Source: Spirochaetia bacterium
GTDB taxonomy: Bacteria > Spirochaetota > Spirochaetia > Treponematales > Breznakiellaceae
DNA: 13,556 nt
Assembly (NCBI GenBank): GCA_025997715.1
Contig: BNUY01000081.1
Coordinates: forward strand, 1 to 13,556
Direction: 5' to 3'
Shown: piece by piece, positions 55 to 13,556 of the stretch
How positions within the stretch are numbered: position 1 is the first letter of the stretch
Layout of the letters: every line of letters begins with the position of its first letter
The notes under the pieces: generated by a model
Seen by the model: the letters and a program-made list of their open reading frames with translations, nothing else
Told to the model about the DNA's origin: nothing
Database searches by the model: none
Position numbers and translations under genes: made by a program

Positions 55-74
55 AAACAAAGTAGATTAAGTTT

Positions 75-1040: not shown

Positions 1041-2614
1041 CAGCAACCTACCACCGTTATGCCTTTTTCTTCCGCCCAGGTCAGGCGGGTATCCCAGGGG
1101 GCTTTTTTACTTTCCGACCGGCGATCGAACAACACCAGATATGCCGGGGCTGCGCTGTCGATGGTATCGCGGTATTTCGCTGTCTGCGCCAGCCCCTGTT
1201 CTTTTACCGTTTCCGCATTTTTTTTATCCCGCAGCAATTTTACTTCGATTATGTATTTTTTCTTATTGTACTCAACCGCTAAATCCATTCTGCCCCGGCC
1301 TGCCGCAAATTCGCGGGTAATACGGCCGCCGCCGTTTAGTACCCGCTGCAAAAAAGCCTGCAGCAACAGATGCGGAAATGCTTCGGTATACATATCCCTC
1401 TGCTTGCGCTGATCTTCCCATACTTCAGAATTTTCCCGCCAGAACTGCTGAAACTCCTTGAGTAACGCATCCATATCAAGCAAGCCCTCCGCATCTTCCC
1501 ATTGCCATTCAGGCGCGGGTATAGCGTCCTGGGCGCCTTCGGTACTATACCGCGCCAAAACTTCCCGGTAGATGGGGTTTGCTACCTGGGGTGTACCCCC
1601 CTCTTTAGACACCAGCCCCAGGTCCAGGCAATAATTAAAGGCATCGGATTGGGTAATAAACTGGTCCACATCTCCTATCATCAGGGTTTCAATAATCTGC
1701 CGTACCCGGTCATCAAGTAACCGCGTTGCCAGTGCGTCCAGGTGTGTTTCCCGGGCAAGGATCATCTGCTCCCGCGCCGCAAGGATATGCTCTATGGTTA
1801 CGGTTTCAGAGCTGTCTTTATCTAAAACACGCATGGTGGCCCGTTGAAAAAGCGAATTGACTATCCATGGCTGGCCGCGAGACTGGTCATAAACATAATC
1901 CAGCGCTTCTTTAGTTATTTGTTGTCCGATTTCCGCTGTCCGCTGGGCAAATAGCCGCCCTACATCGTCTTTTTGAAAATTTCCCAAGAATACCGAATCA
2001 GACTTAACATTAAAGGGGGAGCCGGGATTAGGCGCAACGCCGCCTTTTGCTGCGGTGATATAATCCTTAAGGTCCCTCATGCCTACCAGGGCAATTGAGA
2101 CGGGAAACTTCCCCACCCCATGTCCGGCAAACCCATTTCTAAGCTGCCGTAAAAACCGGATGAGAGGTTCCCCCTGTAAAACATCAACCTCATCAAATAA
2201 CACCACAAGTGGCTTCGGCGCAGTCTTTTGTGCCCAATCCGACAACATGTCGGCAATCGCTGTTTCCGAATCCATATCAGCTTCAGGCGCCGGTAAACCG
2301 TTAAGCTCTGCCCATCTTCTTATGTAACGGCATATTATCCGCTTAGCAACATCAGGGTCTTCCACCGCCTGACAGGTTTCTACGCTCACATAGCAAGCAA
2401 CCGCTTCATCCCCGGCGTTTATCTCGCGCATCCAGGACATCAGAAAGGTAGTCTTGCCGGTTTGCCGGGGCGCATGGAGCACCCAGTAGAGCTGATCCTG
2501 TATATACCGGCTGAGTTGGGCGCCCACCAGTCGTTCTTCCGGGGGGAGCATATAGTGCATGTCCGGATTGCACGGACCGGTTGTATTAAAAAACCGTACC
2601 TCTCTTTTAGCCAT
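1040..2614 (-). CDS. AAA/STAND-type ATPase with C-terminal PD-(D/E)XK nuclease-like domain
   Basis: From the ATG at 2614 this is a 524-aa protein; an in-frame ATG at 2641 would add 9 residues. Numbering from 2641, the N-terminal part (FFNTTGPCNPDMHYMLPPEE) and the Walker A motif APRQTGKTT (57-65) match the AAA-like family that includes PF14516. Walker B is LVVLFDEVD (145-153) and a sensor-like VGMRDL follows at 186-191. The C-terminal segment GRGRMDLAVEYNKKKYIIEVK (448-468) has the D-x(n)-ExK core of PD-(D/E)XK nucleases (D453, E466, K468), followed by AQTAKYRD. Proteins of this build are common in gut bacteria; their function is not established. The 2614 start is preferred because 2641 lies in the spacer of a near-consensus promoter and neither ATG has a clear ribosome site. 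The frameshifted nucleotidyltransferase follows with a 1-nt overlap. A nucleic-acid-directed or defence role is inference only. Confidence 0.9.
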   Translation of the reverse strand: MAKREVRFFNTTGPCNPDMHYMLPPEERLVGAQLSRYIQDQLYWVLHAPRQTGKTTFLMSWMREINAGDEAVACYVSVETCQAVEDPDVAKRIICRYIRRWAELNGLPAPEADMDSETAIADMLSDWAQKTAPKPLVVLFDEVDVLQGEPLIRFLRQLRNGFAGHGVGKFPVSIALVGMRDLKDYITAAKGGVAPNPGSPFNVKSDSVFLGNFQKDDVGRLFAQRTAEIGQQITKEALDYVYDQSRGQPWIVNSLFQRATMRVLDKDSSETVTIEHILAAREQMILARETHLDALATRLLDDRVRQIIETLMIGDVDQFITQSDAFNYCLDLGLVSKEGGTPQVANPIYREVLARYSTEGAQDAIPAPEWQWEDAEGLLDMDALLKEFQQFWRENSEVWEDQRKQRDMYTEAFPHLLLQAFLQRVLNGGGRITREFAAGRGRMDLAVEYNKKKYIIEVKLLRDKKNAETVKEQGLAQTAKYRDTIDSAAPAYLVLFDRRSESKKAPWDTRLTWAEEKGITVVGC

Positions 2615-2620
2615 GTCTTC

Positions 2621-2649
2621 AGTATAGCGGTATTTCACCATACAAACAA
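2621..2649 (-). promoter_or_regulatory. Sigma-70 promoter of the ATPase operon, predicted leaderless
   Basis: On the minus strand TTGTTT (2649-2644) and TATACT (2626-2621) are separated by exactly 17 bp. The usual start site, 7 nt past the -10 box, falls on the A of the ATG at 2614, so the mRNA would have no leader. This agrees with the lack of a Shine-Dalgarno sequence there. Confidence 0.55.
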
Positions 2650-2691
2650 GGGAGTTTGCGATATTAAATCACCCCTTCCCGAATTGTTTAG

Positions 2692-2735
2692 TTGACTAAA
2701 AATTGACCTTTTCTTGACAACCAGTTTACATCTAT
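2692..2735 (+). promoter_or_regulatory. Four 11-bp direct repeats, putative response-regulator site
   Basis: TTGACT (2692), TTGACC (2703), TTGACA (2714) and TTTACA (2725) start at an exact 11-bp period, one helical turn apart. Such arrays are typical of OmpR/PhoB-family response regulators, and the TTTACA unit is the same core seen in the two Pho-like boxes at 6426 and 9573. The array lies between the divergent ATPase and 2828 genes, about 100 bp before the latter. No -10 box with standard spacing from the TTGACA was found, which fits an activator-dependent promoter. Confidence 0.5.
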
Positions 2736-2781
2736 AGACTACCTTAAAAATATCAAGAGTGAATTAACTATTTGCTTTTGG

Positions 2782-2805
2782 TTTTTACACCGTAGGGTGT
2801 AAAAA
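2782..2805 (+). promoter_or_regulatory. Palindrome upstream of the 2828 gene
   Basis: TTTTTACACC (2782-2791) and GGTGTAAAAA (2796-2805) form a perfect 10-bp inverted repeat around GTAG, ending 10 bp before the ribosome site. It could be an operator or a hairpin in the mRNA leader. It lacks a T-run, so it is not a typical plus-strand terminator. Confidence 0.55.
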
Positions 2806-2827
2806 AATATTTTTGAAGGAGTCTATT

Positions 2828-3268
2828 ATGACTAAAAAGAAAAAGATCATCATTGGTGTGGCCGCAGGTGTGGTCGTAGTGAGTTGGGCTATCCTTGGCA
2901 GCCTGGCTTCGTTTGGCGCAGGGGCGGTGATGTGGAATTCCGGCGGTTTGGGTACGGAGTACAATACTGCGGTAGCGGTAAAAGACTTTGAACCTTTGGA
3001 ATTAGTCTTTGTCACGACAACCGTGAAAAACGACCGCGACGCAGCAGAGGTACATGACTTGTTGCTCAAAGAAGCGCAAAAATTAGGCGGTCATGGGATA
3101 ATCAATGTGAACATTGATACTCAACGGAAGGGATGGTTCGGGGAAGTGACCGTGACGGGTTCTGCTCTCGCCATAAAATACACCGATTCGGTCGGAGTAC
3201 CCACAACAGGTAATAGTTTTGGTGGTCTATCGCGGATGATGCGCGGTTTTGGCGGCTGGCGGAACTAG
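2828..3268 (+). CDS. Small membrane-anchored protein of unknown function
   Basis: A 146-aa protein starting at ATG 2828, with GAAGGAG at 2815-2821 six bases upstream. An in-frame TTG at 2813 overlaps that ribosome site and is not used. The N-terminus is MTKKKK followed by a hydrophobic segment (residues 7-36), either a signal-anchor or an uncleaved signal. The soluble part (about 45-118) includes the stretch LLLKEAQKLGGHGIINVNID and then GEVTVTGSALAIKY. This recalls the YbjQ-like alpha/beta fold, in which an Ala/Gly-rich helix precedes a strand, but the match is weak. The tail is rich in Gly, Met and Arg (FGGLSRMMRGFGGWRN). It stands alone on the plus strand between divergent and convergent neighbours, behind an 11-bp repeat array and a palindrome, so it is probably tightly regulated. 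Function not assigned. Confidence 0.8.
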   Translation: MTKKKKIIIGVAAGVVVVSWAILGSLASFGAGAVMWNSGGLGTEYNTAVAVKDFEPLELVFVTTTVKNDRDAAEVHDLLLKEAQKLGGHGIINVNIDTQRKGWFGEVTVTGSALAIKYTDSVGVPTTGNSFGGLSRMMRGFGGWRN

Positions 3269-3278
3269 TAAAAGTAAA

Positions 3279-3312
3279 ACTACGGTTGCCCTTCCTTAAA
3301 GACAACCGTAGT
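3279..3312 (-). terminator. Hairpin between convergent genes
   Basis: ACTACGGTTG (3279-3288) and CAACCGTAGT (3303-3312) form a perfect 10-bp stem with a 14-nt loop. Read on the minus strand it is followed by TTTTACTTTT, so it best fits termination of the VOC gene. It also lies 10 bp past the stop of the plus-strand gene and may serve both. Confidence 0.6.
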
Positions 3313-3351
3313 CTACTTGCTTGACAATACTATACCGCCCTACCCTGCTTT

Positions 3352-3765
3352 TTACATTTTAGTCATGATCATCCAGCTAACGCCGAATTTATCCACCAAA
3401 GAACCAAAAAATTCACTCCAGAATGTTTTTTGGAGTTCCATAGTAACGGTGCCGCCTTCTTTGAGCTTGTCGAAGGCGGATTTGACGCTATCGGCGTTAT
3501 CCAACTCTACCGAAATAGACATGCCGCTACCAAAGGTTACCGGCATATCCGGCGTCACATCAGCAAGAAAGACGGTATAGTCATCACGATTGGTAAGGCA
3601 TGCGTGCATCACAAAATTTTCTGTTCCCTGCGGCGGCTTGTAACCTTCGGACGGAGGCGCATCACTATATCTCATTACCTTGGCTTTGACCCCGAAGGCT
3701 TTTTCATAAAACTCAATTGCTTCTGCGCAATTCCCATTGAAATTCAAATACGGTGTAATTTTCAT
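3352..3765 (-). CDS. PhnB-like VOC (glyoxalase/bleomycin-resistance fold) protein
   Basis: A 137-aa protein beginning MKITPYLNFNGNCAEAIEFY, the standard N-terminus of the PhnB/YjdN-type VOC family. It carries the characteristic FYEKAFGVKAKVMRYSDAPP, a central VMHACLTNRDDYTVFLADV strand pair, GSGMSISVELDN, and the closing WSEFFGSLVDKFGVSWMI. Length and motif order match intact family members. The ATG at 3765-3763 is chosen because GGAGGA (3776-3771) lies 5 bases upstream; an in-frame ATG at 3792 has no such site. Family members are dimeric and bind small molecules, often with a metal; the substrate here cannot be read from sequence. It is a single-gene unit with its own consensus promoter and a terminator hairpin after the stop. 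Confidence 0.9.
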   Translation of the reverse strand: MKITPYLNFNGNCAEAIEFYEKAFGVKAKVMRYSDAPPSEGYKPPQGTENFVMHACLTNRDDYTVFLADVTPDMPVTFGSGMSISVELDNADSVKSAFDKLKEGGTVTMELQKTFWSEFFGSLVDKFGVSWMIMTKM

Positions 3766-3786
3766 TCTTATCCTCCAAAAGATTTT

Positions 3787-3808
3787 ATCCACTTTTTTTT
3801 AAGTGGAT
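3787..3808 (-). promoter_or_regulatory. Hairpin or operator in the leader of the VOC gene
   Basis: ATCCACTT (3787-3794) and AAGTGGAT (3801-3808) form a perfect 8-bp inverted repeat around six T. The predicted start site (about 3810) is 2-3 bases upstream, so the transcript would begin with this hairpin. It could stabilise the mRNA 5' end or be an operator overlapping the start site. Confidence 0.5.
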
Positions 3809-3816
3809 TCTATTAT

Positions 3817-3845
3817 AGTATATCCTACCCTGCCATTTTTGTCAA
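3817..3845 (-). promoter_or_regulatory. Consensus sigma-70 promoter of the VOC gene
   Basis: On the minus strand TTGACA (3845-3840) and TATACT (3822-3817) are separated by 17 bp. A second -10-like TATAAT lies at 3817-3812. The predicted start is near 3810, about 45 nt before the ATG. Confidence 0.75.
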
Positions 3846-3876
3846 TCCAGAAATAAATTTGCAAGACGCTTATGGG

Positions 3877-4146
3877 CTATGTTTCATTTTTTGATAACAA
3901 TATAAATATACCAATACTTGTTATAAATGCCATTATTCCACCAACTATAAAAGGCATTGACTGTCCCATTAAATCCCATAAAACACCTGCAATTATTGAA
4001 GCGGGTAACAGCCCTAACCCAACTATTGCCGAATGTAAACCCAGCGAACTTGCCTTTTGTGTTTCCGGTACAATTTCCACAATAAGAGCCCGTTCTATTC
4101 CCGTCGTTAATGCAGTATAAAATCCATAATGTTTTATACAATACTT
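3877..4146 (-). pseudogene. C-terminal remnant of an MFS transporter
   Basis: The minus-strand frame from 4146 to TAG 3879-3877 reads HYGFYTALTTGIERALIVEI, VPETQKASSLGLHSAIVGLG, LLPASIIAGVLWDLMGQSMP, then a final hydrophobic helix and LLSKNET. This is the usual end of a 12-TM major facilitator protein: the cytoplasmic turn before TM11 with GLH, the conserved LLPASIIAG helix, and TM12. About 85 of the expected 400 or so residues are present. An in-frame TGA at 4149-4147 cuts it off, and no start or ribosome site is seen. No transporter sequence was found further upstream, so the rest of the gene is deleted. The remnant abuts the promoter region of the TetR operon on the other strand. Confidence 0.75.
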
Positions 4147-4149
4147 TCA

Positions 4150-4363
4150 ACAAATCTTAGCATGGACGGCGCGGGGAGCTACTACTTTAGCCATTATATT
4201 TATTTTACATGATTTTTTTAAAGGAAAACCTCTAAAAAATTCAATTTCATATCATATTCCATAGGTTTTATACGGTTTTACCCCAGGATTTAGCCATTTT
4301 TACGGCTTTTTGAGGTCCCGCTAACATTTTTCATAAATTTTTTCAAAAAAACGCATTTTTCTC
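4150..4363. other. AT-rich intergenic spacer
   Basis: Nothing coding is seen between the MFS remnant and the TetR-operon promoter. The sequence is AT-rich with short poly-T and poly-A runs, and a weak AGCC/GGCT hairpin near 4291-4308 is followed by T. An ATG near 4163 opens only 16 codons with no ribosome site. Confidence 0.5.
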
Positions 4364-4392
4364 TTGACATTTCCGAAGTCCCAAGGTATATT
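4364..4392 (+). promoter_or_regulatory. Consensus sigma-70 promoter of the TetR operon
   Basis: TTGACA (4364-4369) and TATATT (4387-4392) are separated by exactly 17 bp. The predicted start site, about 4399, falls inside the TetR-type palindrome, so repressor binding would block initiation. Confidence 0.85.
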
Positions 4393-4395
4393 CAA

Positions 4396-4419
4396 ATAGG
4401 AATGAACGTTCATTCCTAT
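4396..4419 (+). promoter_or_regulatory. 24-bp perfect palindromic TetR-family operator
   Basis: The half-site ATAGGAATGAAC (4396-4407) is followed directly by its exact reverse complement (4408-4419). The core GAATGAAC/GTTCATTC is typical of TetR/AcrR-family operators. It lies 3 bp after the -10 box and precedes a gene cluster encoding a TetR regulator, so autorepression is the simplest reading. Confidence 0.85.
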
Positions 4420-4441
4420 ATTTTGACTTTGGAGGACTTTT

Positions 4442-4573
4442 ATGGGTATTATCGCAATCGTTTTGGGGATTATTGGAACCCTTCCAATAATCTGGTGTGC
4501 CGTCCTGGTGTTGGGCCTGTTATCCGTATTGGGGTTAATAGGCAGCGTCACGGCTTTTTTTGTAGGAGGGTGA
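4442..4573 (+). CDS. 43-aa hydrophobic membrane peptide, first gene of the TetR operon
   Basis: ATG 4442 has a strong GGAGGA (4431-4436) five bases upstream and sits in the operon leader right after the TetR operator. The product begins MGIIAIVLGIIGTLPIIWCA and ends GSVTAFFVGG. It is almost entirely hydrophobic, with Gly-spaced helices broken by a Pro at residue 15, so one or two membrane segments are likely. The ribosome site of the tetR gene (GGAGG, 4564-4568) lies within its last codons and the gap to the tetR ATG is 3 bp, which suggests translational coupling. No family is recognised. A toxin-like or transporter-accessory peptide is possible but unproven. The promoter, ribosome site and coupling make it likely to be translated. 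Confidence 0.7.
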   Translation: MGIIAIVLGIIGTLPIIWCAVLVLGLLSVLGLIGSVTAFFVGG

Positions 4574-4576
4574 AGT

Positions 4577-5164
4577 ATGCCTGTCCAGTCGGAAAAAAGG
4601 GATGCCCTCTTGAACGCCGCCCTTAAACTCATTGCCGGTCAGGGCTTCCATGCCGCGCCCATGTCGCAAATTGCCGGGGAAGCCAATATCGGCGTGGGAA
4701 CGATTTACCGCTATTTCAAGAATAAGGACGAGCTGATTAACGGCCTCTACCTTGAAATACGCAAGCGCATGGCCGAGGCAATCGGCAAAGGCCAGGACGA
4801 AGCCGCGCCGGTAAAAGCGCAATTCGTTAAATCTTTGCAAAACCTTATCCGCTATTTGATTGAAAACCCTGAGGAAATACAGTTTACCGAACAGTATGAA
4901 CATTCTCCGTTCATTACCGATGAGACAAAAGCGGAAATCGAAAAAGTAGCGTCCCCTATTTCGGATTTGCTTATCCGCGCCCAAAAAGAAAAACTGTTAA
5001 AGCCCTTACCTTTTCCGGTGCTTATGTCTATGTTTTCAGGCGCGTCAATGGGACTGTTAAAAGCATATTTGCAAAAAAAATCGTCCCCCGCAAAAATGAA
5101 CGAAGCGATTGAGGCAATCTGGGATATGCTTATCCCCAAAAATATTGAAGGAGTAAAACAATGA
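4577..5164 (+). CDS. TetR/AcrR-family transcriptional regulator
   Basis: A 195-aa protein of typical TetR size. The N-terminal domain shows the family pattern: KRDALLNAALKLIAGQGFHA (helix 1), then the helix-turn-helix MSQIAGEANIGVGTIYRYFK (residues 29-48) and NKDELINGLY. The C-terminal ligand domain (about 60-195) is variable; it includes FTEQYEHSPF and LMSMFSGASMGLLKAYL. GGAGG lies 8 bases before the ATG at 4577. The gene sits between the 43-aa peptide and an outer-membrane barrel gene, with a 4-bp ATGA overlap at 5161-5164 into the latter. With a perfect TetR palindrome over the operon start site, it probably represses its own operon and is released by a ligand linked to envelope stress or efflux. 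The ligand cannot be inferred. Confidence 0.93.
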   Translation: MPVQSEKRDALLNAALKLIAGQGFHAAPMSQIAGEANIGVGTIYRYFKNKDELINGLYLEIRKRMAEAIGKGQDEAAPVKAQFVKSLQNLIRYLIENPEEIQFTEQYEHSPFITDETKAEIEKVASPISDLLIRAQKEKLLKPLPFPVLMSMFSGASMGLLKAYLQKKSSPAKMNEAIEAIWDMLIPKNIEGVKQ

Positions 5165-5784
5165 AGAACTGTTTAATGGTGAGCGTGTTTCTTTTGGCGG
5201 CGTCCCTTTGTTTCGCACAAATAACAGGGAATGTTGAAATTTACGGCGGAGCCGCACTGTTCGATGAAACCAGCGGAATGAACGGCCCTGAAACCGTTTA
5301 TAAATCGGCTTCCGTTTCGGCGGGTATTTCCGGCGGAGTTTATTTTAATAACTCCATTGGCCTCAAAGCCTATTTGGATTTTCTCATTCCGCTGGCCTTT
5401 ACCGCCGACCCCGACGGTGGAACTGCGGTAACACGGAAGGACTACGATTTCCTTTTGGGAATGGATGAATTTTTCGGCGTTGTTTATAACGTGGTCAAAA
5501 AAGATCGGCTGAAGGTTCCGGTAATGGCGGGATTTCACGGCAAACTGTTCTTTTCCACTATTTCAGATTATTTTACCGCGGCGATAAACAGCGGTATTGG
5601 TCTTGGAATCGGCGTAGAATATACCTTTAGCAACAACTGGTATATTCTGGGACGGGTAAACGGCTCATTTGATTTCCTGGGATTTTCGATAATGACACCG
5701 CCCGAAGGCGGCCCGAAATTCGACATGGCGTTAATACGCACATGGGGATTTGCGCCTCATATTGGCATCGGTTTTAGGTTTTAG
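5161..5784 (+). CDS. Small outer-membrane beta-barrel protein
   Basis: A 207-aa protein starting inside the tetR stop codon (ATGA overlap), with GAAGGAG at 5147-5153. Residues 1-19 form a Sec signal peptide (MKNCLMVSVFLLAASLCFA, cleavage before Q). The mature part alternates polar and hydrophobic residues with aromatic girdles: VEIYGGAALF, SVSAGISGGVYFNN, GIGLGIGVEYTFSNNWYILG, and a final PHIGIGFRF ending in Phe, the usual signal for barrel assembly. About eight strands are likely, as in OmpA/OmpX-size barrels. No enzyme motif is visible. Being co-transcribed with a TetR regulator and an inner-membrane protein suggests a role in envelope permeability or efflux, but this is inference. Confidence 0.8.
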   Translation: MKNCLMVSVFLLAASLCFAQITGNVEIYGGAALFDETSGMNGPETVYKSASVSAGISGGVYFNNSIGLKAYLDFLIPLAFTADPDGGTAVTRKDYDFLLGMDEFFGVVYNVVKKDRLKVPVMAGFHGKLFFSTISDYFTAAINSGIGLGIGVEYTFSNNWYILGRVNGSFDFLGFSIMTPPEGGPKFDMALIRTWGFAPHIGIGFRF

Positions 5785-5794
5785 GGGGGAATTT

Positions 5795-6343
5795 ATGAAA
5801 AACAATACTACAAACTTTTCCAAAATGGGCATTGTGCTTTTGCTCATCGGTGTTCTTGGTATTCTCAACGCCATTGGCGATACAGTTACCTTGATTCTGG
5901 CAATAACACAATCATTTGAAGGTAACGCCTTCTTTTCTTTTTTCTTCCATGTCTTTGCCGACAAAGGCTTATTTTTAATCGCAATGCCGCTGACATTACT
6001 TTGCACTGTTTTGTGTTTGGTGTTTATGTTCGGGCGCAAATCATTTTTGTTTCAAGTGTTTTTCTTTGCGTCCTGCATTATTGCGTTGATACATTTACTG
6101 GTCAATTTATTTTCCCTATACCCGCTTACCATTTTTGATATTATGGTAAACGCAGGATTTAACGCTTCAATTACCAGTCTTATTAATCCTATGCTTGGGT
6201 TATTACGGACAATGTATACAGCGTTTTTGATAACCGGGATATTTGGCTGCATGGGTTTATTGATCGTTTGTTTTATATACTTCAAACGTTCAAAACGGAT
6301 TGCCGCCTGGTTTGGTTCATATTTGAGCCAGTTCCAAAATTGA
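5795..6343 (+). CDS. Polytopic inner-membrane protein of unknown family
   Basis: A 182-aa protein whose ATG at 5795 follows GGGGGGA (5784-5790) by 4 bases; an earlier in-frame ATG at 5750 lies inside the previous gene and is not used. Four hydrophobic segments are seen at about residues 11-35, 58-80, 84-108 and 138-163, followed by a basic end (FKRSKRIAAWFGSYLSQFQN). An N-in, C-in topology fits the positive-inside rule. No family signature is recognised. It is the last gene of the TetR operon, 10 bp after the barrel gene. Its final codons form the left arm of an imperfect inverted repeat whose right arm lies past the terminator. Confidence 0.75.
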   Translation: MKNNTTNFSKMGIVLLLIGVLGILNAIGDTVTLILAITQSFEGNAFFSFFFHVFADKGLFLIAMPLTLLCTVLCLVFMFGRKSFLFQVFFFASCIIALIHLLVNLFSLYPLTIFDIMVNAGFNASITSLINPMLGLLRTMYTAFLITGIFGCMGLLIVCFIYFKRSKRIAAWFGSYLSQFQN

Positions 6344-6357
6344 AGAAAAAACCATGA

Positions 6358-6413
6358 AAAACAAGAAACACACGAAAAAGAAATAGTAATTTTTTTCGTG
6401 TGTTTCTTGTTTT
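6358..6413 (+). terminator. Long hairpin terminator of the TetR operon
   Basis: A perfect 22-bp stem pairs 6358-6379 (core CAAGAAACACACG) with 6392-6413 (core CGTGTGTTTCTTG), with a 12-nt loop and a right arm ending in TTTT. It lies 15 bp past the stop codon. A further outer repeat pairs 6324-6339 with 6410-6425 (14 of 16 positions), its left arm inside the coding sequence. Confidence 0.75.
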
Positions 6414-6425
6414 GGAACCAGCTCA

Positions 6426-6476
6426 TTTTACACAAATTTTACATAAAACTGCTGTCAGATTATATATACCCATACT
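6426..6476 (+). promoter_or_regulatory. Pho-box-like promoter, copy 1
   Basis: Two tandem 11-mers, TTTTACACAAA (6426-6436) and TTTTACATAAA (6437-6447), match the arrangement of PhoB/PhoP boxes: a TTTACA-like core at an 11-bp period. A CTGTCA follows at 6452-6457 and a -10-like CATACT lies at 6471-6476, 23 bp after the repeats. There is no good -35 box, which fits an activator-dependent promoter. The same arrangement at 9573 precedes the pstS-like gene. It lies upstream of the truncated peptide and alkaline phosphatase. Confidence 0.75.
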
Positions 6477-6515
6477 ATTTTCAGTTAAGAAAACAAGAAC
6501 AGGAGGAAATTATTG
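6426..6515 (+). repeat. Promoter/leader duplication, copy 1
   Basis: About 90 bp from the Pho-like box through the ribosome site is shared with 9573-9663. Shared blocks include CTGCTGTCAGATTA, CCCATACTATTTT, CAGTTAA and ACAGGAG. Similarity ends at the start codons. This is a duplicated regulatory cassette carried by two phosphate-related transcription units. Confidence 0.85.
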
Positions 6516-6638
6516 AAAAAACTCATTGCTGTTTCGATCTTGTTGATCGCGCTGTCTGCGGCAGTATTCGCACAGGAACTTAAATTTGGGGGCTATGTGG
6601 AAAGCGGCCTTGGGGTGAAGTTTCTAATTGAAGAGTGA
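6513..6638 (+). pseudogene. Truncated secreted or outer-membrane protein (41 aa)
   Basis: AGGAGG (6501-6506) lies 6 bases before a TTG at 6513 that opens 41 codons to TGA 6636-6638. The product has a full Sec signal peptide: Lys-Lys, the hydrophobic core LIAVSILLIALSAAV, and FA-Q cleavage. It is followed by ELKFGGYVESGLGV, a typical first strand of a spirochaete outer-membrane protein, then an abrupt KFLIEE end. The coding strength of the signal region and the early stop suggest the 5' remnant of a larger barrel or porin gene whose body was deleted before phoA. It could instead be a genuine short secreted peptide. It is the first reading frame after Pho-box copy 1, so it should be induced with phoA by phosphate starvation. 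The use of TTG where copy 2 has ATG is unusual. Confidence 0.6.
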
Positions 6639-6717
6639 AAAGACCAGCGTTGCTGGTAAAAATAAAGAAAAAAGCCGGTTAACAGCGAATTCGCCGACTG
6701 ACTTTTAAGGAGTATCT

Positions 6718-8193
6718 ATGAAAATTCGTATCACTGTTTTGATGTGTGTGCTGGCCCTTTCTTTTCAGCCCCTGTTCGCCAAAGGGACCGCTGATGGGGG
6801 AGAGCGGAATACTGCCGTAGCCGGGAAGGGGCAGGCAAAGTACGTGTTCCTGTTTATCGGTGACGGCATGGCAATGTCGCAGATTAGTACGGCGGAGGTT
6901 TTCTCCACAGCCCGATCTTCAAAGGACATAAACGTTACCAGGCTGGGCTTTACCCAGTTCCCCGTGGCGGGGCTTACCACCACCTTCGATGCGGGGACAT
7001 TCATCACCGACTCCGCCTCAGCGGGCACGGCGATTGCCACGGGAAACAAAACCCTGAGCGGCGTTATCAACATGGATGTAGGCAAAACCAAAAGTTTCAA
7101 AACCATCGCCGAATATGCCCATGATGCGGGGATGAAGGTGGGTGTTGTGTCCACCGTAACGTTGAACCACGCGACACCGGCTTCTTTCTACTCCAAAGTT
7201 CCCTCGCGGAGTAATTACTACGATATTGCGGTGCAGCTTGCCAACAGCGGTTTTGAGTATTTCGGCGGCGGCTCCATTGATCAGCGGACCGGGAAAAACA
7301 AGGATCAAGAGGACGCGGTGGCAATAGCCAGGGCCAACGGCTACACCTATGTAGACAGCAAGGAAGGCTTTAACGCCCTCAAACCCGGCGCGGGCAAGGT
7401 GATTGCGGTTAGCCCGGTATTGCAGGATTCCGGTTCCATGCCTTATGACATCGACCGCAAGCCGGGCGATCTTTCGATTGCCGATTATACGAAAAAAGGC
7501 ATAGAGCTGCTGGATAACCCCAAGGGTTTTTTTCTGATGGTGGAAGGCGGAAAAGTTGACTGGGCCTGCCACGCCAACGATGCCGGCGCTGCCATTTACG
7601 ATGTGCTTGCCCTGGACAAGGCAATCGGCGCAGCCCTGGACTTTGCCAAACAGCATCCTCAAGAGACCCTTATCGTGGTTACAGGAGATCATGAAACCGG
7701 CGGCCTCACCATGGGCTTCGCCGGCACCCAGTACAACACCTTCTTTGACAAGGTGGGCCTCCAGAAGCGTTCTTATGTGGCCTTTGACGAAGAAGTGCTC
7801 AAGCCCTACAAGGCCAGGACCGCCGCCGCCGGTGCGAAACTCGCCGACCTCCTTCCGGCGATAAAAGAATCTTTCGGCATTGATTACAACGCGCTTTCGG
7901 CCTTCCAGAAAGAACAGATCGAATTCGCCTTTCAGCGCTCCATGGGGAACGAGCAGCTCCGCTCCTTTGCCGAGGATCAGTACCTTCTCTACGGCGGCTA
8001 CGAACCGTTGACGGTAAAGCTTACTCAGATCCTAAACCAGACTGCGGGCATAGGCTGGACTTCCTACGCCCATACCGGCGTTCCGGTTCCCACTTTTGCC
8101 AGCGGCGCGCATCAGGAAATTTTCGGCGGGTACTACGACAATACGGACATCTTCCGCAAGCTCGCCAGCGCAATGAACCTGAGGGTTCAGTAA
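6718..8193 (+). CDS. phoA: Alkaline phosphatase (PhoA family)
   Basis: A 491-aa exported phosphomonoesterase of typical length, with AAGGAG at 6707-6712. Residues 1-21 form a Sec signal peptide (LFA cleavage), with no lipobox. Active-site motifs are all present: FIGDGM (metal Asp49), FITDSASAGTAIATG with nucleophile Ser99, LNHATPASF (151-157), MVEGGKVDWACHAND (Glu276, Asp281, His285), VTGDHETGGL (Asp324, His325) and SYAHTGVPVP (His452). It should act in the periplasm, releasing phosphate from organic esters. It lies 242 bp downstream of the tandem Pho-like repeats, behind the truncated peptide. No terminator separates them, so it is probably part of the same starvation-induced transcript. A YibE/F-like permease follows after 30 bp. 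The gene appears intact. Confidence 0.95.
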   Translation: MKIRITVLMCVLALSFQPLFAKGTADGGERNTAVAGKGQAKYVFLFIGDGMAMSQISTAEVFSTARSSKDINVTRLGFTQFPVAGLTTTFDAGTFITDSASAGTAIATGNKTLSGVINMDVGKTKSFKTIAEYAHDAGMKVGVVSTVTLNHATPASFYSKVPSRSNYYDIAVQLANSGFEYFGGGSIDQRTGKNKDQEDAVAIARANGYTYVDSKEGFNALKPGAGKVIAVSPVLQDSGSMPYDIDRKPGDLSIADYTKKGIELLDNPKGFFLMVEGGKVDWACHANDAGAAIYDVLALDKAIGAALDFAKQHPQETLIVVTGDHETGGLTMGFAGTQYNTFFDKVGLQKRSYVAFDEEVLKPYKARTAAAGAKLADLLPAIKESFGIDYNALSAFQKEQIEFAFQRSMGNEQLRSFAEDQYLLYGGYEPLTVKLTQILNQTAGIGWTSYAHTGVPVPTFASGAHQEIFGGYYDNTDIFRKLASAMNLRVQ

Positions 8194-8199
8194 AACAGG

Positions 8200-8217
8200 T
8201 TTCCTCTTCCAAGGAAA
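8200..8217 (+). promoter_or_regulatory. Hairpin covering the ribosome site of the YibE/F gene
   Basis: TTTCCT (8200-8205) pairs with AGGAAA (8212-8217) across a 6-nt loop in the 30-bp gap after phoA. The right arm contains the AAGGAA ribosome site for the GTG start at 8224, so pairing would reduce initiation unless upstream translation opens it. The stem is short and could be chance. Confidence 0.35.
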
Positions 8218-8223
8218 TAGATA

Positions 8224-9387
8224 GTGAAAAAAACATTTAAAAAAAGAGCGGCATCTCTCCTGGGATTCTCTCATAAAGAATCCAGGAGGGATGCTATTTT
8301 CATCGCCGTGACGGGACTGCTTACGGTTCTGCTGCTGACGCTTCCCACGGGATTTGAGGGGAGCGCAATTGCATCTAACGCGCTGCGGGCCAGGGTGAGG
8401 GTCGCGGAGGTGAACAACGAGAAGCTCAAGATAATAGGGCCTGTCAGGCAGGGAGAACAGCAGCTTGAGGTGGAGATTCTTTCCGGGCGTTTTAAGGGCC
8501 AGGTCTATTCCACATCGAATAATTTGATGGGGAAAATGGAATTGGACAAGGTCTTTATGAAAGGCGACATTGCGCTGGCGGTGCTGAACCTTACCGAAGA
8601 CGGCGCTGTCGCCCACGCCCAGATCATCGATCACTACCGTACCGGGAAAACCCTTTTCTTGTGCGCTCTTTTTATCGCGGTAATGGTCATCGTCATGGGA
8701 TGGATGGGGATCAAAATATTGATCACCTTTGTTTTTTCCGCCGCAGCGCTTATCCGCATACTCTATCCCATGATACTCCGCGGCTGGGACCCGATAGCGG
8801 GCTCACTGATAATAGTAACAATTATCACCGCGCTGGTTATGTTTCTGGTAGGGGGCCTTTCCCGCCGGGCGCTGGTTGGCTTTTTGGGAGCCGTGGGCGG
8901 AGTGGCCTTTAGCTCGCTCTTGGCCTTTGTCTTTACCGGATGGTTCAAAATCCACGGCGCAGTACGGCCCTTTACCGAAACTCTGCTCTTTTCAGGCTAC
9001 GGCCATCTCAACCTGGCCCATCTCTTTATCGCGGGGATTTTCATCGCCGCTTCCGGCGCGATGATGGACCTTGCCATGGACGTTGCCGCCGCCATGGACG
9101 AAATTAACAAGCAGCAGCCCGCCATTACCCGCTTTGCGCTGATGCGTTCCGGCTTTACCGTGGCACGGCAGGCCGCCGGCACCATGTCTACCACCCTACT
9201 CCTCGCCTATTCCGCCGAATATACTGCCATGATCATGACCTTTATCGCCCAGGGTGTTCCCCTGGAAAACGTTATCAATATGGTCTGGGTTTCCTCGGAA
9301 GTGGTACACACCCTGGTCGGCTGTTTCGGCCTGTTGCTGGTAGCGCCCCTTACGGTTTTTTTCGGCGGGATGATACTGAAACGGTAA
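8224..9387 (+). CDS. YibE/F-like multi-pass membrane protein
   Basis: A 387-aa protein starting at GTG 8224, with AGGAA seven bases upstream. One TM segment (about 24-42) precedes an extracytoplasmic domain (about 50-140: RARVRVAEVNNEKLKIIGPV, then EVEILSGRFKGQVYSTSNNL). About seven TM helices follow. The conserved YibE/F core (PF07907) is seen in WDPIAGSLIIVTIITALVMF, GLSRRALVGFLGAVGGVAFS, GASGAMMDLAMDVAAAMDEI-type residues, and VGCFGLLLVAPLTVFFGG. Length and layout match Gram-positive and spirochaete YibE/F proteins. Transport function is unproven for the family. Close spacing after phoA suggests co-transcription and a possible role in phosphate starvation, perhaps export or uptake of products. 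No terminator precedes it. Confidence 0.88.
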   Translation: MKKTFKKRAASLLGFSHKESRRDAIFIAVTGLLTVLLLTLPTGFEGSAIASNALRARVRVAEVNNEKLKIIGPVRQGEQQLEVEILSGRFKGQVYSTSNNLMGKMELDKVFMKGDIALAVLNLTEDGAVAHAQIIDHYRTGKTLFLCALFIAVMVIVMGWMGIKILITFVFSAAALIRILYPMILRGWDPIAGSLIIVTIITALVMFLVGGLSRRALVGFLGAVGGVAFSSLLAFVFTGWFKIHGAVRPFTETLLFSGYGHLNLAHLFIAGIFIAASGAMMDLAMDVAAAMDEINKQQPAITRFALMRSGFTVARQAAGTMSTTLLLAYSAEYTAMIMTFIAQGVPLENVINMVWVSSEVVHTLVGCFGLLLVAPLTVFFGGMILKR

Positions 9388-9406
9388 GAGATATATACTG
9401 CTTTGG

Positions 9407-9507
9407 GGATGAAATTATAAGAATTCATCCGCGAATAAACGCTAATTAACGCGAATAATACGCTCCGGGTATTTGATTTATTCGCGAACATTTGCGAAAA
9501 TTCGCGG
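9407..9507. repeat. Palindromic intergenic element rich in GCGAAT
   Basis: CCGCGAATAAACGCTAATTA and onward (9429-9458) is an imperfect inverted copy of 9478-9507, which ends AAAATTCGCGG; about 23 of 30 positions match. The motif GCGAA/TTCGC recurs every 10-15 bp. A smaller hairpin (GGATGAA 9407-9413, TTCATCC 9424-9430) lies at its left end. It looks like a dispersed palindromic repeat and may act as a terminator or mRNA-stabilising structure after the YibE/F gene. Confidence 0.6.
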
Positions 9508-9572
9508 ACCCTATTCTTTATTGATATTTTCGTTCCTAAAGGAGTATAAGTAATATGCCGCACGAACCTTGA

Positions 9573-9623
9573 TTTTACACAAATTTTACATAAACCTGCT
9601 GTCAGATTACACATTCCCATACT
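9573..9623 (+). promoter_or_regulatory. Pho-box-like promoter, copy 2, upstream of pstS-like gene
   Basis: TTTTACACAAA (9573-9583) and TTTTACATAAA (9584-9594) are tandem and identical to copy 1. CTGTCA and a -10-like CATACT (9618-9623) follow at the same spacing of 23 bp. The box starts 88 bp before the pstS-like ATG. Confidence 0.8.
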
Positions 9624-9663
9624 ATTTTTCAGTTAACAAACTAGAAACAGGAGAAAGATTATG
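9573..9663 (+). repeat. Promoter/leader duplication, copy 2
   Basis: This is the second copy of the cassette at 6426-6515, matching from the Pho-like box through the AGGAG ribosome site, with a few substitutions and small indels. Here it leads to an intact gene. Confidence 0.85.
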
Positions 9664-10527
9664 ATGAAGAAAACGATTCTACTTTTACTTGCGGTGGTAT
9701 CTCTGTTCGCGGGATGCGCCAAAGGAAATCAGGCGGCTTTTGACAAGGCAAAGGCAATCGGCGTTGTATCACGGGAGGACGGCTCCGGCACCCGGGGGGC
9801 GTTCATTGAACTTTTCGGCATTGAGGCCAGGGGCAGTGACGGAAGCAGAAAGGATATGACCACAAAAGAAGCCGTTATCGCCAAACAAACCGATGTAATG
9901 ATGACGAATATTGGAGGAGACAAGTACGCTATCGGTTACATCTCACTTGGTTCACTGAACAGCACCGTGAAAGCGGCGGATATTGAGGGCGTAAAAGCAT
10001 CTACCGAAAATGTAAAAAACGGTACTTATGCCGTGTCCCGGCCGTTCAACATCGCAACTAAAGGCGAGGCGAAGGAGCTTGCCGCGGATTTCATCGCATT
10101 TATTTTGTCGGCAGAAGGTCAGGCGGTTGTAGCCAAAAGCTATATCGCGATTGTTGACAACGCACCGCCCTATACCGGCGGCAGGATCTCCGGCAAAATC
10201 GTTGTCGCGGGTTCTTCTTCCGTCACGCCAATAATGGAAAAGCTGAAAGAGGCGTATATCGCTCTCAATCCAAACGTCAACATCGAAATCCAGATGAGCG
10301 ATTCATCAGCCGGTATGACAGGCGCTATTGACGGAACCTGTGACATCGGTATGGCAAGCCGGGAATTAAAGGACAGCGAACGTGCCGTATTATCCGCGAC
10401 ACAGATTGCCCTTGACGGAATCGCCATAATTGTGAACAATGAAAATCCGGTAACGAATCTCACCAAAGAAGAGGTAAAGGGCATCTTTACCGGCGCCATG
10501 GTAAACTGGAGTGATGTGATTCAATAG
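9661..10527 (+). CDS. PstS-like phosphate-binding lipoprotein with permuted lobes
   Basis: A 288-aa lipoprotein: signal peptide with lipobox LFAGC (Cys19), and AGGAG 7 bases before ATG 9661. Residues 33-162 correspond to the second half of ordinary PstS: VVSREDGSGTRGAFIELFGI (phosphate-loop GSGTRG), YAIGYISLGSLNSTVKA, ENVKNGTYAVSRPFNIATKG and FILSAEGQAVVAKSYI. Residues 177-288 correspond to the first half: SGKIVVAGSSSVTPIMEKLK, EIQMSDSSAGMTGAIDG, CDIGMASRELKDSE, ALDGIAIIVNNENPV and GIFTGAMVNWSDVIQ. All phosphate-contact loops are present, but in circularly permuted order with a linker (IVDNAPPYTGGR). Ordinary PstS runs GSSSV, then FTG..NW, then GSGTRG. The lack of internal stops suggests a folded, functional protein that captures phosphate for a Pst transporter or acts as a sensor. 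Similar permuted proteins may occur in clostridia (recollection, not checked). No pst permease genes follow. Confidence 0.88.
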   Translation: MMKKTILLLLAVVSLFAGCAKGNQAAFDKAKAIGVVSREDGSGTRGAFIELFGIEARGSDGSRKDMTTKEAVIAKQTDVMMTNIGGDKYAIGYISLGSLNSTVKAADIEGVKASTENVKNGTYAVSRPFNIATKGEAKELAADFIAFILSAEGQAVVAKSYIAIVDNAPPYTGGRISGKIVVAGSSSVTPIMEKLKEAYIALNPNVNIEIQMSDSSAGMTGAIDGTCDIGMASRELKDSERAVLSATQIALDGIAIIVNNENPVTNLTKEEVKGIFTGAMVNWSDVIQ

Positions 10528-10569
10528 GTCATCCTGCCCCGTTGGGTTTACTTTGGGATCGGCGCGCGC

Positions 10570-10662
10570 TCAGGGGCACACAACACGGAAACTGTAGATG
10601 TCGTTCCTGTTGATTGCGCCGGTTTTATCCATCCATGTTACACCCCCTTCCCCTACTGCCAG
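10570..10662 (-). pseudogene. Short C-terminal remnant ending YSFRVVCP
   Basis: On the minus strand 30 codons are open from 10662 to TGA 10572-10570, reading AVGEGGVTWMDKTGAINRND then IYSFRVVCP. The ending resembles the FRVV-type close of formylglycine-generating-enzyme-like (SUMF1) domains found in many spirochaete exported proteins. No upstream part or start exists, so this is at most a gene tail. The assignment is tentative. Confidence 0.3.
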
Positions 10663-10802
10663 TTAGCGTGTATTGAGCCGTAATCGGTCCATGCGGGAAG
10701 TGGGTCCGGGCTGGCAAAAATAGCAAAATGAGTGCCTGGCACCATAGGCGTTCCCGGCACTCCAGAGCTCACCAGGTTTTTTAGAAAGTCTGAACCTTTA
10801 AA
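10653..10802 (-). pseudogene. 3' remnant of a second surface-protein gene
   Basis: A 49-codon minus-strand frame ends at TAG 10655-10653. It reads VSSGVPGTPMVPGTHFAIFA then SPDPLPAWTDYGSIHANWQ. The large surface protein at 11167 ends with DTFASCPASVTVGLHAYWQ, and the DNA after both stops is similar (GGGGAAGG-type). The tail HA-N/Y-WQ preceded by FAS is therefore shared. The frame has a stop just upstream and overlaps the end of the 88-aa gene in another frame, so only the tail of a related gene is left here. It may be scar from recombination or deletion. Confidence 0.5.
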
Positions 10803-11166: not shown

Positions 11167-13556
11167 CTACTGCCAGTAGGCATGCAGGCCGACAGTAACC
11201 GAAGCGGGACAAGACGCAAAGGTATCTAAATCAGTTGATGGCGTCGGCGGCGGTGTAGTCGTGTTGCCATGGAACCCCATCGACAGGGCATTTAAAGCAG
11301 AGCCGGTTAAACTTGAACACCCCCTAAATGTCCTACTCATGAAGTAGGTATAATTTTCCTGCCCCGAACTAAATATATTCGATCCTATCAGGTTCTCTAT
11401 GTTTGTGTTTAAGACAGAACAGCCAGAGAACATTAAGTCAAAGATATTGTTTGTCCCGTTGGGAACGGCGGGGAGTTGGAACCCGGCGGGCAGCGAGCTT
11501 AGACTGGTACAGCCACCGAACATACTGGAAAAGATATAGTCGGTTCCGTTGGGAACGGCGGGGAGTTGGAATCCGGCGGGCAGCGAGCCAAGACTGGTAC
11601 AGCCATAGAACATGATAGAAAAGATACTGCTGGTCCCGTTGGGAACAGCGGGGAGTTGGAACCCGGCGGGCAGCGAGCTAAGACCGCTACAGCCATAGAA
11701 CATTTCGTAAAAGATACCGCTGGTCCCGTTGGGAACAGCGGGGAGTTGGAAGGCGGCGGGCAGCGAGCCAAGACTGGTACAGCCCAAGAACATGCCAGAA
11801 AAGATATAGTCGGTTCCGTTGGGAACGGCGGGGAGTTGGAACCCGATGGGCAGCGAGCTAAGACTGCTACAGCCAAAGAACATGCGGTAAAAGATAGTGC
11901 CGGTCCCGTTGGGGACGGCGGGGAGTTGGAACCCGACGGGCAGCGAGCTAAGACCGCTACAGCCATAGAACATGTTGGAAAAAATATCGCTGGTCCCGTT
12001 GGGAACGGCGGGGAGTTGGAACCCGGCGGGTAGCAAGCTAAGACTGGTACAGTTATTGAACATGCTGGCAAAGATACCGCTGGTTCCGTTGGGAACGGCG
12101 GGGAGTTGAAACCCGGCGGGCAGCGAGCTAAGACCGCTACAGCCATAGAACATGTTGGAAAAGATATACCTGGTCCCGTTGGGAATAGCGGGAAGTAAAT
12201 CAGGAGATACTTCATTAAGATTGGTACAGTTGTAAAAACAGTAGTTCCAGGCATTGGGAAAGACGGCAACACTGGTATTTTCTTTAATATGCCCCAGGGC
12301 TTTTAACAGCTTCTGTTTGTTGGCCGCTGTATTGGCGCCGGTTGTACCGGAGCCAAACCCAAAGGCCGCATGGCCGGTATTGCTGTTTGCGGTGATTTCA
12401 ATAGTATATTGCGGGTTCGCGGTGTAGGTGTGGCTAATCCCCGTACCGCTACCGCTTGCCCCGGTTCCGGTTTGGGTCACAATGTTGCCATCGCCCCAAT
12501 CAATGGTCCAGTCATAGGCCCAGGTGTTATTTGTGGGAATGGTGAAAGTGCCGGAACTCCCGTTGATTACCAGCTTGAGTGAGGCGGCAACCCATTTGGC
12601 ATATACGGTGATGTTCGCCGTTACCGGGGTTGATGCAGTAAACGATGTGCCCCAATTGCCGCCAGAGCCGTTTTGCGTCCACCAGCCGTCGAAGGAGTAG
12701 CCGAGTCTGGTGGGTTGTGTTGGCATTGGATTTACGATAGAACCTGCCGCTACTCCCAGGCTATTCGGGCTTGCCTCGGTACTGCCTGAGTCAGTGTTGT
12801 TCTTGTCAAATGTTACCGTGTAGGCGTTTGCCGTCCACTGCGCATACACGGTGATGTTCGCCACCACCGGGGTTGATGCGTCAAACACAGTTCCGCTTCC
12901 ATCGGCTGCCGTGTTCCAGCCGCCGAAGGTGTAGCCGGTTCTGGCGGGTTGCGCCGGCAGCGGGTTTATTGTACCGCCGTCTGCAACAACTGCCGTCTGC
13001 GGGCTTGCCTCGGTACTGCCTGAGTCACTGTTGTTCTTGTCAAATGTTACCGTGTAGGCGTTTGCCGTCCACTGCGCATACACGGTGATGTTTGCCACCA
13101 CCGGGGTTGATGCGTCAAACACAGTTCCACTGCCGTTGGCTACCGTGTTCCAGCCGCCGAAGGTGTAGCCGGTTCTGGCGGGTTGTGTTGGCAGCGGGTT
13201 TACCGTCCCGCCGTCTGCAACAACTGCCGTCTGCGGGCTTGCCTCGGTACTGCCTGAGTCACTGTTGTTCTTGTCAAATGTTACCGTGTAGGCGTTTGCC
13301 GTCCACTGCGCATACACGGTGATGTTCGCTACCACCGGGGTTGATGCGTCAAACACAGTTCCGCTTCCATCGGCTGCCGTGTTCCAGCCGCCGAAGGTGT
13401 AGCCGGTTCTGGCGGGTTGTGTTGGCAGTGGGTTTACCGTCCCGCCGTCTGCAACAACTGCCGTCTGCGGGCTTGCCTCGGTACTGCCTGAGTCACTGTT
13501 GTTCTTGTCAAATGTTACCGTGTAGGCGTTTGCCGTCCACTGCGCATACACGGTGA
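11167..13556 (-). CDS. Giant repeat surface protein: InlB-type repeats, PKD-like domain, BspA-type repeats (5' end outside window)
   Basis: The frame is open from the right edge to TAG near 11167; about 795 residues are visible and the N-terminus is missing. In order: four InlB/Listeria-Bacteroides repeats (Flg_new, PF09479; unit motif YTVTFDKNNSDSGSTEASP, then ARTGYTFGGWNT, DASTPVVANITVYAQW), three almost identical and one divergent. Next is a PKD-like segment (AYDWTIDWGDGNIV, GISHTYTANPQYTIEI). Then come nine BspA/DUF285-like units of 30 residues (GFQLPAVPNGT, IFxxMFxGCxxLxSLP). The tail is GNTTTPPPTPSTDLDTFASC followed by HAYWQ. Such proteins are exported and bind host or microbial surfaces in Listeria, Tannerella and Treponema; the ligand here is unknown. 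The repeats are near-identical at DNA level, which points to recent duplication and possible recombination with relatives such as the remnant at 10653-10802. Confidence 0.9.
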   Translation of the reverse strand, partial: TVYAQWTANAYTVTFDKNNSDSGSTEASPQTAVVADGGTVNPLPTQPARTGYTFGGWNTAADGSGTVFDASTPVVANITVYAQWTANAYTVTFDKNNSDSGSTEASPQTAVVADGGTVNPLPTQPARTGYTFGGWNTVANGSGTVFDASTPVVANITVYAQWTANAYTVTFDKNNSDSGSTEASPQTAVVADGGTINPLPAQPARTGYTFGGWNTAADGSGTVFDASTPVVANITVYAQWTANAYTVTFDKNNTDSGSTEASPNSLGVAAGSIVNPMPTQPTRLGYSFDGWWTQNGSGGNWGTSFTASTPVTANITVYAKWVAASLKLVINGSSGTFTIPTNNTWAYDWTIDWGDGNIVTQTGTGASGSGTGISHTYTANPQYTIEITANSNTGHAAFGFGSGTTGANTAANKQKLLKALGHIKENTSVAVFPNAWNYCFYNCTNLNEVSPDLLPAIPNGTRYIFSNMFYGCSGLSSLPAGFQLPAVPNGTSGIFASMFNNCTSLSLLPAGFQLPAVPNGTSDIFSNMFYGCSGLSSLPVGFQLPAVPNGTGTIFYRMFFGCSSLSSLPIGFQLPAVPNGTDYIFSGMFLGCTSLGSLPAAFQLPAVPNGTSGIFYEMFYGCSGLSSLPAGFQLPAVPNGTSSIFSIMFYGCTSLGSLPAGFQLPAVPNGTDYIFSSMFGGCTSLSSLPAGFQLPAVPNGTNNIFDLMFSGCSVLNTNIENLIGSNIFSSGQENYTYFMSRTFRGCSSLTGSALNALSMGFHGNTTTPPPTPSTDLDTFASCPASVTVGLHAYWQ
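11461..12190 (-). repeat. 90-bp tandem repeats coding BspA-type units
   Basis: Eight units start at exact 90-bp steps (11461, 11551, 11641, 11731, 11821, 11911, 12001, 12091). Each begins GGGAACGGCGGGGAGTTGGA or a close variant (plus strand), and a decayed ninth starts at 12181. Differences cluster in the loop codons after GT and around MF, where the protein is variable, while the FQLPAVPNGT-coding part is nearly fixed. Confidence 0.95.
12604..13556 (-). repeat. 234-bp tandem repeats coding InlB-type units
   Basis: The marker CACGGTGATGTT recurs at 12847, 13081, 13315 and (cut off) 13549, exactly 234 bp apart. A divergent unit starts near 12604, 243 bp before the first. Neighbouring units differ at only a few positions (for example VANGSG against AADGSG), so they arose by recent duplication or are kept alike by gene conversion. 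The array continues beyond the window. Confidence 0.95.

Follow-up and report, generated by a model that had tools for sequence, protein, structure and literature searches.

What is the meaning of two nearly identical stretches of about 90 base pairs (bp) that stand, on one contig of a spirochaete, before an alkaline phosphatase gene (phoA) and before a gene for a PstS-like lipoprotein (pstS)? We considered this question for contig BNUY01000081.1 of a Spirochaetia bacterium, 13,556 nucleotides (nt) in length, which is here called the window and is contig C81 of its own draft genome (G000, 3.38 Mb, 447 contigs, estimated to be 77% complete). Both cassettes are very probably promoters of a phosphate (Pho) response, with the same operator driving phoA-yibEF, a circularly permuted pstS and, on another contig, pstCAB-phoU. 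The kind of system is already known; what is added here is a third operon, a third half-site, a likely copying of the promoter, a permuted PstS and a recurrent phoA-yibEF pair. An earlier note on this DNA, made from the sequence alone, had overlooked the third operon, the third half-site, an open reading frame (ORF) between the first cassette and phoA, and the permutation of PstS.

The two cassettes and their operator

The cassettes span positions 6426-6512 and 9573-9660. A repeat search paired 6425-6499 with 9572-9646 at 84% ungapped identity, and blastn aligned the two with 86.5% identity over 104 columns (E = 3.5e-28), as expected from the near identity described in the earlier note; the likeness extends in the alignment past the ribosome-binding region, which the note had also included, to about the start codon. 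Within positions 1-10700 of the window no exact repeat is longer than the one of 23 nt at 6425/9572; 200 dinucleotide shuffles gave at most 17 nt, so that a chance repeat was ruled out. The tandem 11-mers TTTTACACAAA and TTTTACATAAA, already recognized in the earlier note, occupy 6426-6436 and 6437-6447 in the first cassette and 9573-9583 and 9584-9594 in the second; this operator core is identical in the two copies (22/22), although the flanks upstream of it differ.

Table 1. Features of the two cassettes and of the genes that follow them, in window positions
Feature	Position	Strand	Basis or remark
Pho operator 1, tandem 11-mers	6426..6447	+	Upstream of the phoA-yibEF unit
Candidate third half-site TTATATA	6460..6466	+	Cassette position 35; at least 5/7 match to TTTTACA in 70/77 cassettes
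Candidate -10 TATTTT	6476..6481	+	TAnnnT at cassette position 51; T51, A52 and T56 invariant in 30 sites
Ribosome-binding site AGGAGG	6501..6506	+	Sequence; alignment with the pstS cassette; copied with the cassette
41-codon ORF, TTG start	6513..6638	+	Between cassette 1 and phoA
phoA, alkaline phosphatase, 491 amino acids (aa)	6718..8193	+	PF00245, E = 3.6e-70, full length
yibE/F-like membrane protein gene, 387 aa	8224..9387	+	PF07907, E = 1.1e-65; adjoins phoA
Pho operator 2, 22-mer identical to operator 1	9573..9594	+	Upstream of pstS; repeat and pattern searches
Candidate third half-site TTACACA	9607..9613	+	Half-site profile over the cassettes
Candidate -10 TATTTT	9623..9628	+	TATAAT profile; 30-site alignment
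Ribosome-binding site AGGAG	9649..9653	+	Sequence
pstS, phosphate-binding lipoprotein with permuted halves	9661..10527	+	C-terminal half (aa 32-165) first, N-terminal half (aa 175-286) second

Two inverted repeats lie close to the cassettes. Just 5′ of cassette 1, two arms of 22 bp (6358-6379 and 6392-6413) form a perfect inverted repeat with a 12-nt loop, likely a terminator that insulates the cassette from the TetR-type genes upstream, and between yibE/F and cassette 2 there is an imperfect 31-nt inverted repeat (9428-9508, 77% complementary), which may be either a terminator or a repeat element.

Conservation of the operator and reading of the promoter

For pstS we found 127 related loci, of which 80 were kept, and by our own count 28 of 116 genomes, G000 included, gave full-length single matches. 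The upstream set consisted of 101 distinct regions of related pstS genes, each with 100 nt or more of DNA before the gene; start codons were picked by a script, and a few of these regions may be misplaced. We considered as a half-site pair any sequence matching TTTTACA-N4-TTTTACA in at least 12 of 14 positions, with dinucleotide shuffles as the null. Such a pair was present in 79/101 upstream regions and in 0.94% of the shuffles, which supports the view of the earlier note that the 11-bp period and the TTTACA core are those of PhoB/PhoP sites. A PHO box is described as tandem 11-nt direct repeats with seven conserved and four loose positions each (PMC4415409); here we found at least two tandem repeats of 11-nt period with about seven conserved positions each, shared by the 79 homologous promoters above. 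The assignment of the element to the PhoB/PhoP-type operators is well supported by these comparisons.

A 57-position operator model was built from 30 aligned sites, in which T3-C6 of the first repeat and T12-C17 of the second are invariant. The third half-site and the -10 were profiled in the 77 cassettes with enough downstream sequence, in groups of 8 (the closest), 30 and 39. A match of at least 5/7 to TTTTACA, starting between +33 and +36, was found in 8/8, 26/30 and 36/39 of them, respectively (null 11-13%). From the sequence, this third half-site is predicted to stand 9 bp before the conserved TAnnnT, in place of a -35 hexamer, with a rival -10 peak at +38 in the closest 8 cassettes. We read the operator, then, as half-sites at +1, +12 and about +35, followed by 9 bp and by the putative -10. 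The stretch TTATATAT at about 6460, which resembles a -10, is more likely the third half-site, the conserved TAnnnT being at 6476-6481 and 9623-9628. A simple sigma-70 scan listed no plus-strand promoter in either cassette from the operator to the -10, which would be expected of an activator-dependent promoter; this is weak evidence, the counts being near the shuffle level.

In the E. coli PHO box, bound by PhoB, the last half-site lies about 9-10 bp upstream of the -10. With the candidate -10 at +51 the spacing would be similar here, and the tandem 11-nt direct repeats and their position before phoA and pst genes are shared; unlike in E. coli, the half-site is TTTTACA instead of CTGTCAT, and the candidate third half-site lies further on, leaving one 11-bp slot empty. 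The B. subtilis PhoP box has the consensus TT(A/C/T)A(C/T)A, in repeats, and by comparison with this consensus the operator of the window is alike in half-site sequence, in 11-bp period and in having several repeats before the -10, and differs in that the slot-3 repeat is missing or degenerate and in that its bearer is probably a spirochaete. General Pho papers aside, the three-half-site arrangement was not treated among the matches listed in the literature on PhoP with TTTTACA or TTAACA repeats, and no such box was named among those listed for Treponema and Pho.

Genome-wide search for the operator

Searching the draft with the 22-mer and at most three mismatches gave two exact matches, one with two mismatches and one with three, and the reversed control pattern gave none. 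The copy with two mismatches (G000:C179:4404-4425, minus strand), outside the window, is upstream of pstC-pstA-pstB-phoU. The one with three (G000:C14:26167) was discarded as a chance match, since it lies on the same strand inside a 342-codon ORF and is absent from the model matches. With the 57-position model, three sites of the draft had E-values from 1.1e-13 to 5.3e-13, the next own match having E = 0.88, and they precede phoA-yibEF, pstS and pstCAB-phoU, respectively. The earlier note had taken the downstream functions as pointing to phosphate starvation and named genome hits away from phosphate genes as the case that would speak against it; 3/3 strong own sites precede phosphate genes. 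As these three sites are among the training sites, their scores are not independent and the weight rests on sites outside the training set; moreover, only 150 of 1,054 first-look candidates of the draft were scored, so that weaker sites may have been passed over.

We also ran the model on other genomes, among them 14 that were all picked for carrying a permuted pstS and of which 12 had no site in the training set. Over all these scans, 7 of the 8 matches with E < 0.01 outside the training set precede pstS (G010, 4.5e-4; G007, 0.0099; G068, 8.7e-9; G098, 7.2e-7; G063, 0.0041), phoA (G068, 4.1e-4) or phnS2 (G116, 8.1e-5). Because of the way the 14 genomes were chosen the pstS matches in them were to be expected, and those before phoA and phnS2 are more independent. 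In G116 the site lies between a divergent gene for a PhoB-like regulator (229.8 bits against a cut-off of 296.2) and those encoding a 2-aminoethylphosphonate transporter, the binding protein of which, encoded by phnS2 (starting at L221:1575), passes the TIGR03261 cut-off (402.4 against 392.75 bits). The two divergent genes flank the Pho-type site within L221:719-2690. The record of a locus assigned to the same genome, L032, is titled Clostridia bacterium though its pstS is 93% identical to that of the window, and mixed binning is thus possible. The model ties together phoA-yibEF, pst and, in this one genome, 2-aminoethylphosphonate uptake, and it can be used for studying the phosphate response of treponeme-like gut bacteria. 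As a separate observation, G030, whose PstS has the conventional order, carries three tandem TTTAAC 11-mers upstream (L139:1335-1390), i.e., a similar operator with another half-site.

From the repeats, their third copy, their conservation, the gene context and the genome scan, we infer a binding protein and its action as follows. Under phosphate shortage, a phosphorylated response regulator of the PhoB/PhoP type would bind the tandem 11-bp TTTTACA repeats head-to-tail, and probably also a weaker third one, which lies two turns of the helix downstream and 9 bp before the -10; once bound, it would recruit RNA polymerase to a promoter without a good -35 hexamer. One operator would in this way serve three units, phoA-yibEF, the unlinked permuted pstS and pstCAB-phoU, which together would cover phosphate release from esters, binding, import and feedback through PhoU.

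The regulator

The earlier note had proposed to look for a phoB/phoR pair. A PhoB-like/PhoR-like pair does lie near pst in relatives; in the draft (77% complete) no ortholog of it turned up, and the best matches to the regulator there are 40% identical. Among the loci listed, genes for a response regulator and a kinase lie downstream of phoU in many relatives, several of them with the operon order pstS-C-A-B-phoU-regulator-kinase, and at L034, a locus of the genus-mate G002, about 1.6 kb separate phoU from the pair. The best NCBIfam match of the regulator of relatives is PhoB TIGR02154 (224.3 bits for L034 and 218.4 for L141), and as the cut-off of 296.2 is not reached we call it PhoB-like only; for the kinase of G026, the PhoR model TIGR02966 is the second-best match, below its cut-off.

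In G000 there are three OmpR-family regulators, on contigs C18, C99 and C4, none of them more than 40% identical to the regulator of the genus-mate. The reading of those on C18 and C99 as the PhoB ortholog was not supported; other models match them best. For the C4 regulator, 32% identical to the genus-mate one, the best model is PhoB NF053854 (179 bits, cut-off 270), and for its kinase the best is PnpS, with PhoR third; by these matches the C4 pair remains a distant candidate for serving the operator. Two readings are left: the PhoB-like ortholog lies in the quarter of the genome that the draft lacks, or the operator is served by a different regulator, perhaps the C4 pair.

The phoA-yibEF unit and the permuted PstS

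The earlier note had cassette 1 leading to alkaline phosphatase. The phosphatase gene is downstream, with its own ribosome-binding site; the 41-codon ORF comes first, and phoA starts 292 nt from the start of the box. This ORF encodes a signal peptide and the start of an outer-membrane-type protein and is probably the remnant of such a protein; it had no Pfam match, and in 18 genomes it matched, besides itself, part of a 174-codon frame of G010 (56% identity over 35 aa) and, weakly, a stretch of G003. PhoA matches PF00245 well above the gathering score (237.4 against 24.4 bits). In 16 of the 23 other genomes with a phoA match yibE/F follows phoA directly; the 6 weakest matches (E of 1.6e-49 or worse) have no yibE/F beside them, and one locus (G013) ends too early. 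This recurrent adjacency suggests a shared role and points to YibE/F as a likely partner of alkaline phosphatase. No description of its role was found among the matches listed in the literature on YibE, with or without phosphate terms.

By genome placement, the genus of the window includes only G001-G004, and we considered the other genomes with a pstS more than 80% identical as close relatives by inference. A phoA gene was not found in the drafts of G001, G002 and G004, nor in those of G116-G119, a search whose empty answer had no positive control and in which G119 appears to be G002 again; G002 and G116-G118 carry the pst cassette. The phoA of G003 is diverged (51%), and the nearest phoA genes (81-83%; G017, G013 and G005) are all in other genera, with no clear cassette in their upstream regions (best 10, 11 and 9 of 14, respectively). 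On these comparisons the phoA-yibEF unit of the window looks acquired.

Downstream from cassette 2, the earlier note had placed a PstS-like lipoprotein, which stands; what had been missed is that its halves are circularly permuted. The protein scores 177.4 bits against TIGR02136, in two stretches, and does not reach the curated cut-off of 206.6 in one colinear match. Among solved chains it is colinear over aa 32-285 with 4h1x (SP_2084 of S. pneumoniae), and in the alignments of the best three it matches 4q8r and 4gd5 in two pieces of swapped order. For the predicted structure (mean predicted local distance difference test, pLDDT, 91.9) the top match was again 4h1x, with a TM-score of 0.93 on the target and 46% identity, and the conventional chains 1twy, 4gd5 and 4q8r aligned over about half of it (128-137 columns). 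The colinear match together with the half-only alignments identifies the order as a permutation of a complete protein, which, going by sequence and model, would work like PstS. SP_2084 has the same permuted order, in a different phylum; as a further difference, on the draft contigs no linkage joins the pstS studied here to pstC. With the conventional PstS both halves are homologous, in the opposite order. Many bacteria share the permuted order, and relatives are found under the record titles Oscillospiraceae, Synergistaceae, Helicobacteraceae, Desulfobulbaceae, Treponema and others. Judged by title, start of abstract and term counts, none of the matches listed in the literature on circularly permuted phosphate-binding proteins treats this permutation of PstS.

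Alternative explanations

Several observations weigh against the reading as Pho promoters. The half-site pair falls below 12/14 in 22/101 pstS upstream regions, and most phoA genes of other genera have no clear box of the TTTTACA type. At E <= 0.1 the model scan recovered the pstS promoter from 5 of the 12 non-training genomes with permuted pstS (G007, G010, G063, G068 and G098) and not in G006, G014, G021, G032, G047, G048 and G065; that of G014 had E = 0.445 in the scan that included G000, and in G065 a contig end 27 nt upstream of pstS cuts off the promoter. No phosphate link was seen for the matches of G017 (E = 0.005) and G004 (E = 0.01), both examined, nor for other matches with E > 0.01, of which G048:C121 was examined and the others mostly not followed. 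As for the regulator, the PhoB and PhoR models stay below their cut-offs even in relatives, the ortholog was not found in the draft, and the C18 and C99 proteins match the YycF and VanR models, respectively, better than PhoB. OmpR-family factors commonly bind tandem repeats, and the missing ortholog and the C18 and C99 matches would fit operators of another member of the family (C18, C99 or C4) answering to a signal other than phosphate. This is very improbable: all three operons consist of phosphate genes, in relatives the operator precedes an operon also encoding PhoB/PhoR-like proteins, and even the C4 pair, given its matches to PhoB and to PnpS and PhoR, could serve a phosphate response.

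The promoter itself may be read in a conventional way, taking TTTACA in the second repeat for the -35 and TATATA at +36 for the -10, the third half-site and the +51 element being unused. The 17-bp spacing fits the phoA cassette and, with TTTACC, the pstC cassette, and the TATAAT profile of the 8 closest cassettes is highest at +38 rather than +51, which keeps this reading open. We consider it unlikely, as the pstS cassette reads TACACA there, a poor -10; the invariant -10-like columns over the 30 sites are T51, A52 and T56, both larger groups, which are more distant, have their profile maximum at +51, and the +35 position of the most distant one reads TTTTACA, with at least 6/7 in 22/39 cassettes; nor was such a promoter in the list of the sigma-70 scan. 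A further possibility is that the cassettes reflect duplication only and that one copy, most likely that of phoA with the remnant ORF, is a non-functional leftover. Their high identity, ribosome-binding site included, and the ORF lying between cassette and phoA would agree with it; the exact conservation of the operator core between differing flanks, the presence of a cassette before phoA in G026 and G068 too, and the ribosome-binding site of phoA itself make it rather improbable.

Proposed origin of the cassettes by copying

The phoA cassette of the window is 95%, 92% and 90% identical to the pstS cassettes of L037, L036 and L034, respectively, and 89% to its own pstS cassette. It would have been copied, ribosome-binding site included, from the pstS promoter of this genome group and placed before the apparently acquired phoA-yibEF operon, which makes this a candidate example of how copying a promoter may bring an imported operon under a local regulator. 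G026 has the arrangement [box]-phoA-yibEF-[box]-pstS-C-A-B-phoU-regulator-kinase; its phoA cassette is 81% identical to its own pstS cassette and at most 73% to any other compared, and its pstS cassette is nearer to those of other genomes (L044, 85%; L051 and L047, 82%) than to its own phoA one, so that the copy is not very recent. The simplest reading of these identities is that a resident pstS promoter was copied in two lineages, though gene conversion between old copies may be an alternative.

Directly behind pstS, with the pstS cassette, pstC is found in three close relatives (L032, L034 and L036), and with a cassette of its own in L033, L035, L037 and G000. The pstC cassette of G000 is 89-91% identical to the other three pstC cassettes, and none of the pstS cassettes compared exceeds 80%. 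The pstC start codon lies at +63, where transcription from a -10 at +51 to +56 should begin, and the pstC message may be leaderless in these four. The stretch L033:4873-9720 holds a tandem pair of pstS genes, both having a Pho cassette of their own; behind the second lies a remnant of the pstC start, and unrelated genes are inserted before pstC.

Tentatively, and with somewhat more doubt than confidence, we propose that the Pho promoter is a copyable unit: that the resident pstS promoter, three half-sites and -10 included and in the window the ribosome-binding site too, was copied independently before phoA-yibEF in the genus of the window and in that of G026 and G068, that pstC gained its own cassette on separation from pstS, and that the three-half-site operator accompanies the permuted pstS across phyla. 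If true, the growth of a regulon by promoter copying would be visible here in progress.

Other features of the window

The palindrome AGGAATGAACGTTCATTCCT (4398-4417) stands before a small ORF and a TetR-family gene (4398-5164) and is a candidate for a self-regulating operator. On the minus strand, 11167-13556 encodes a repeat protein, surface-protein-like by eye, with a repeat of 90-nt period (8 copies) and one of 234-nt period, and 1040-2641 encodes a protein of 533 aa, ATPase-like by eye. A run of 11 G is found at 540-550.

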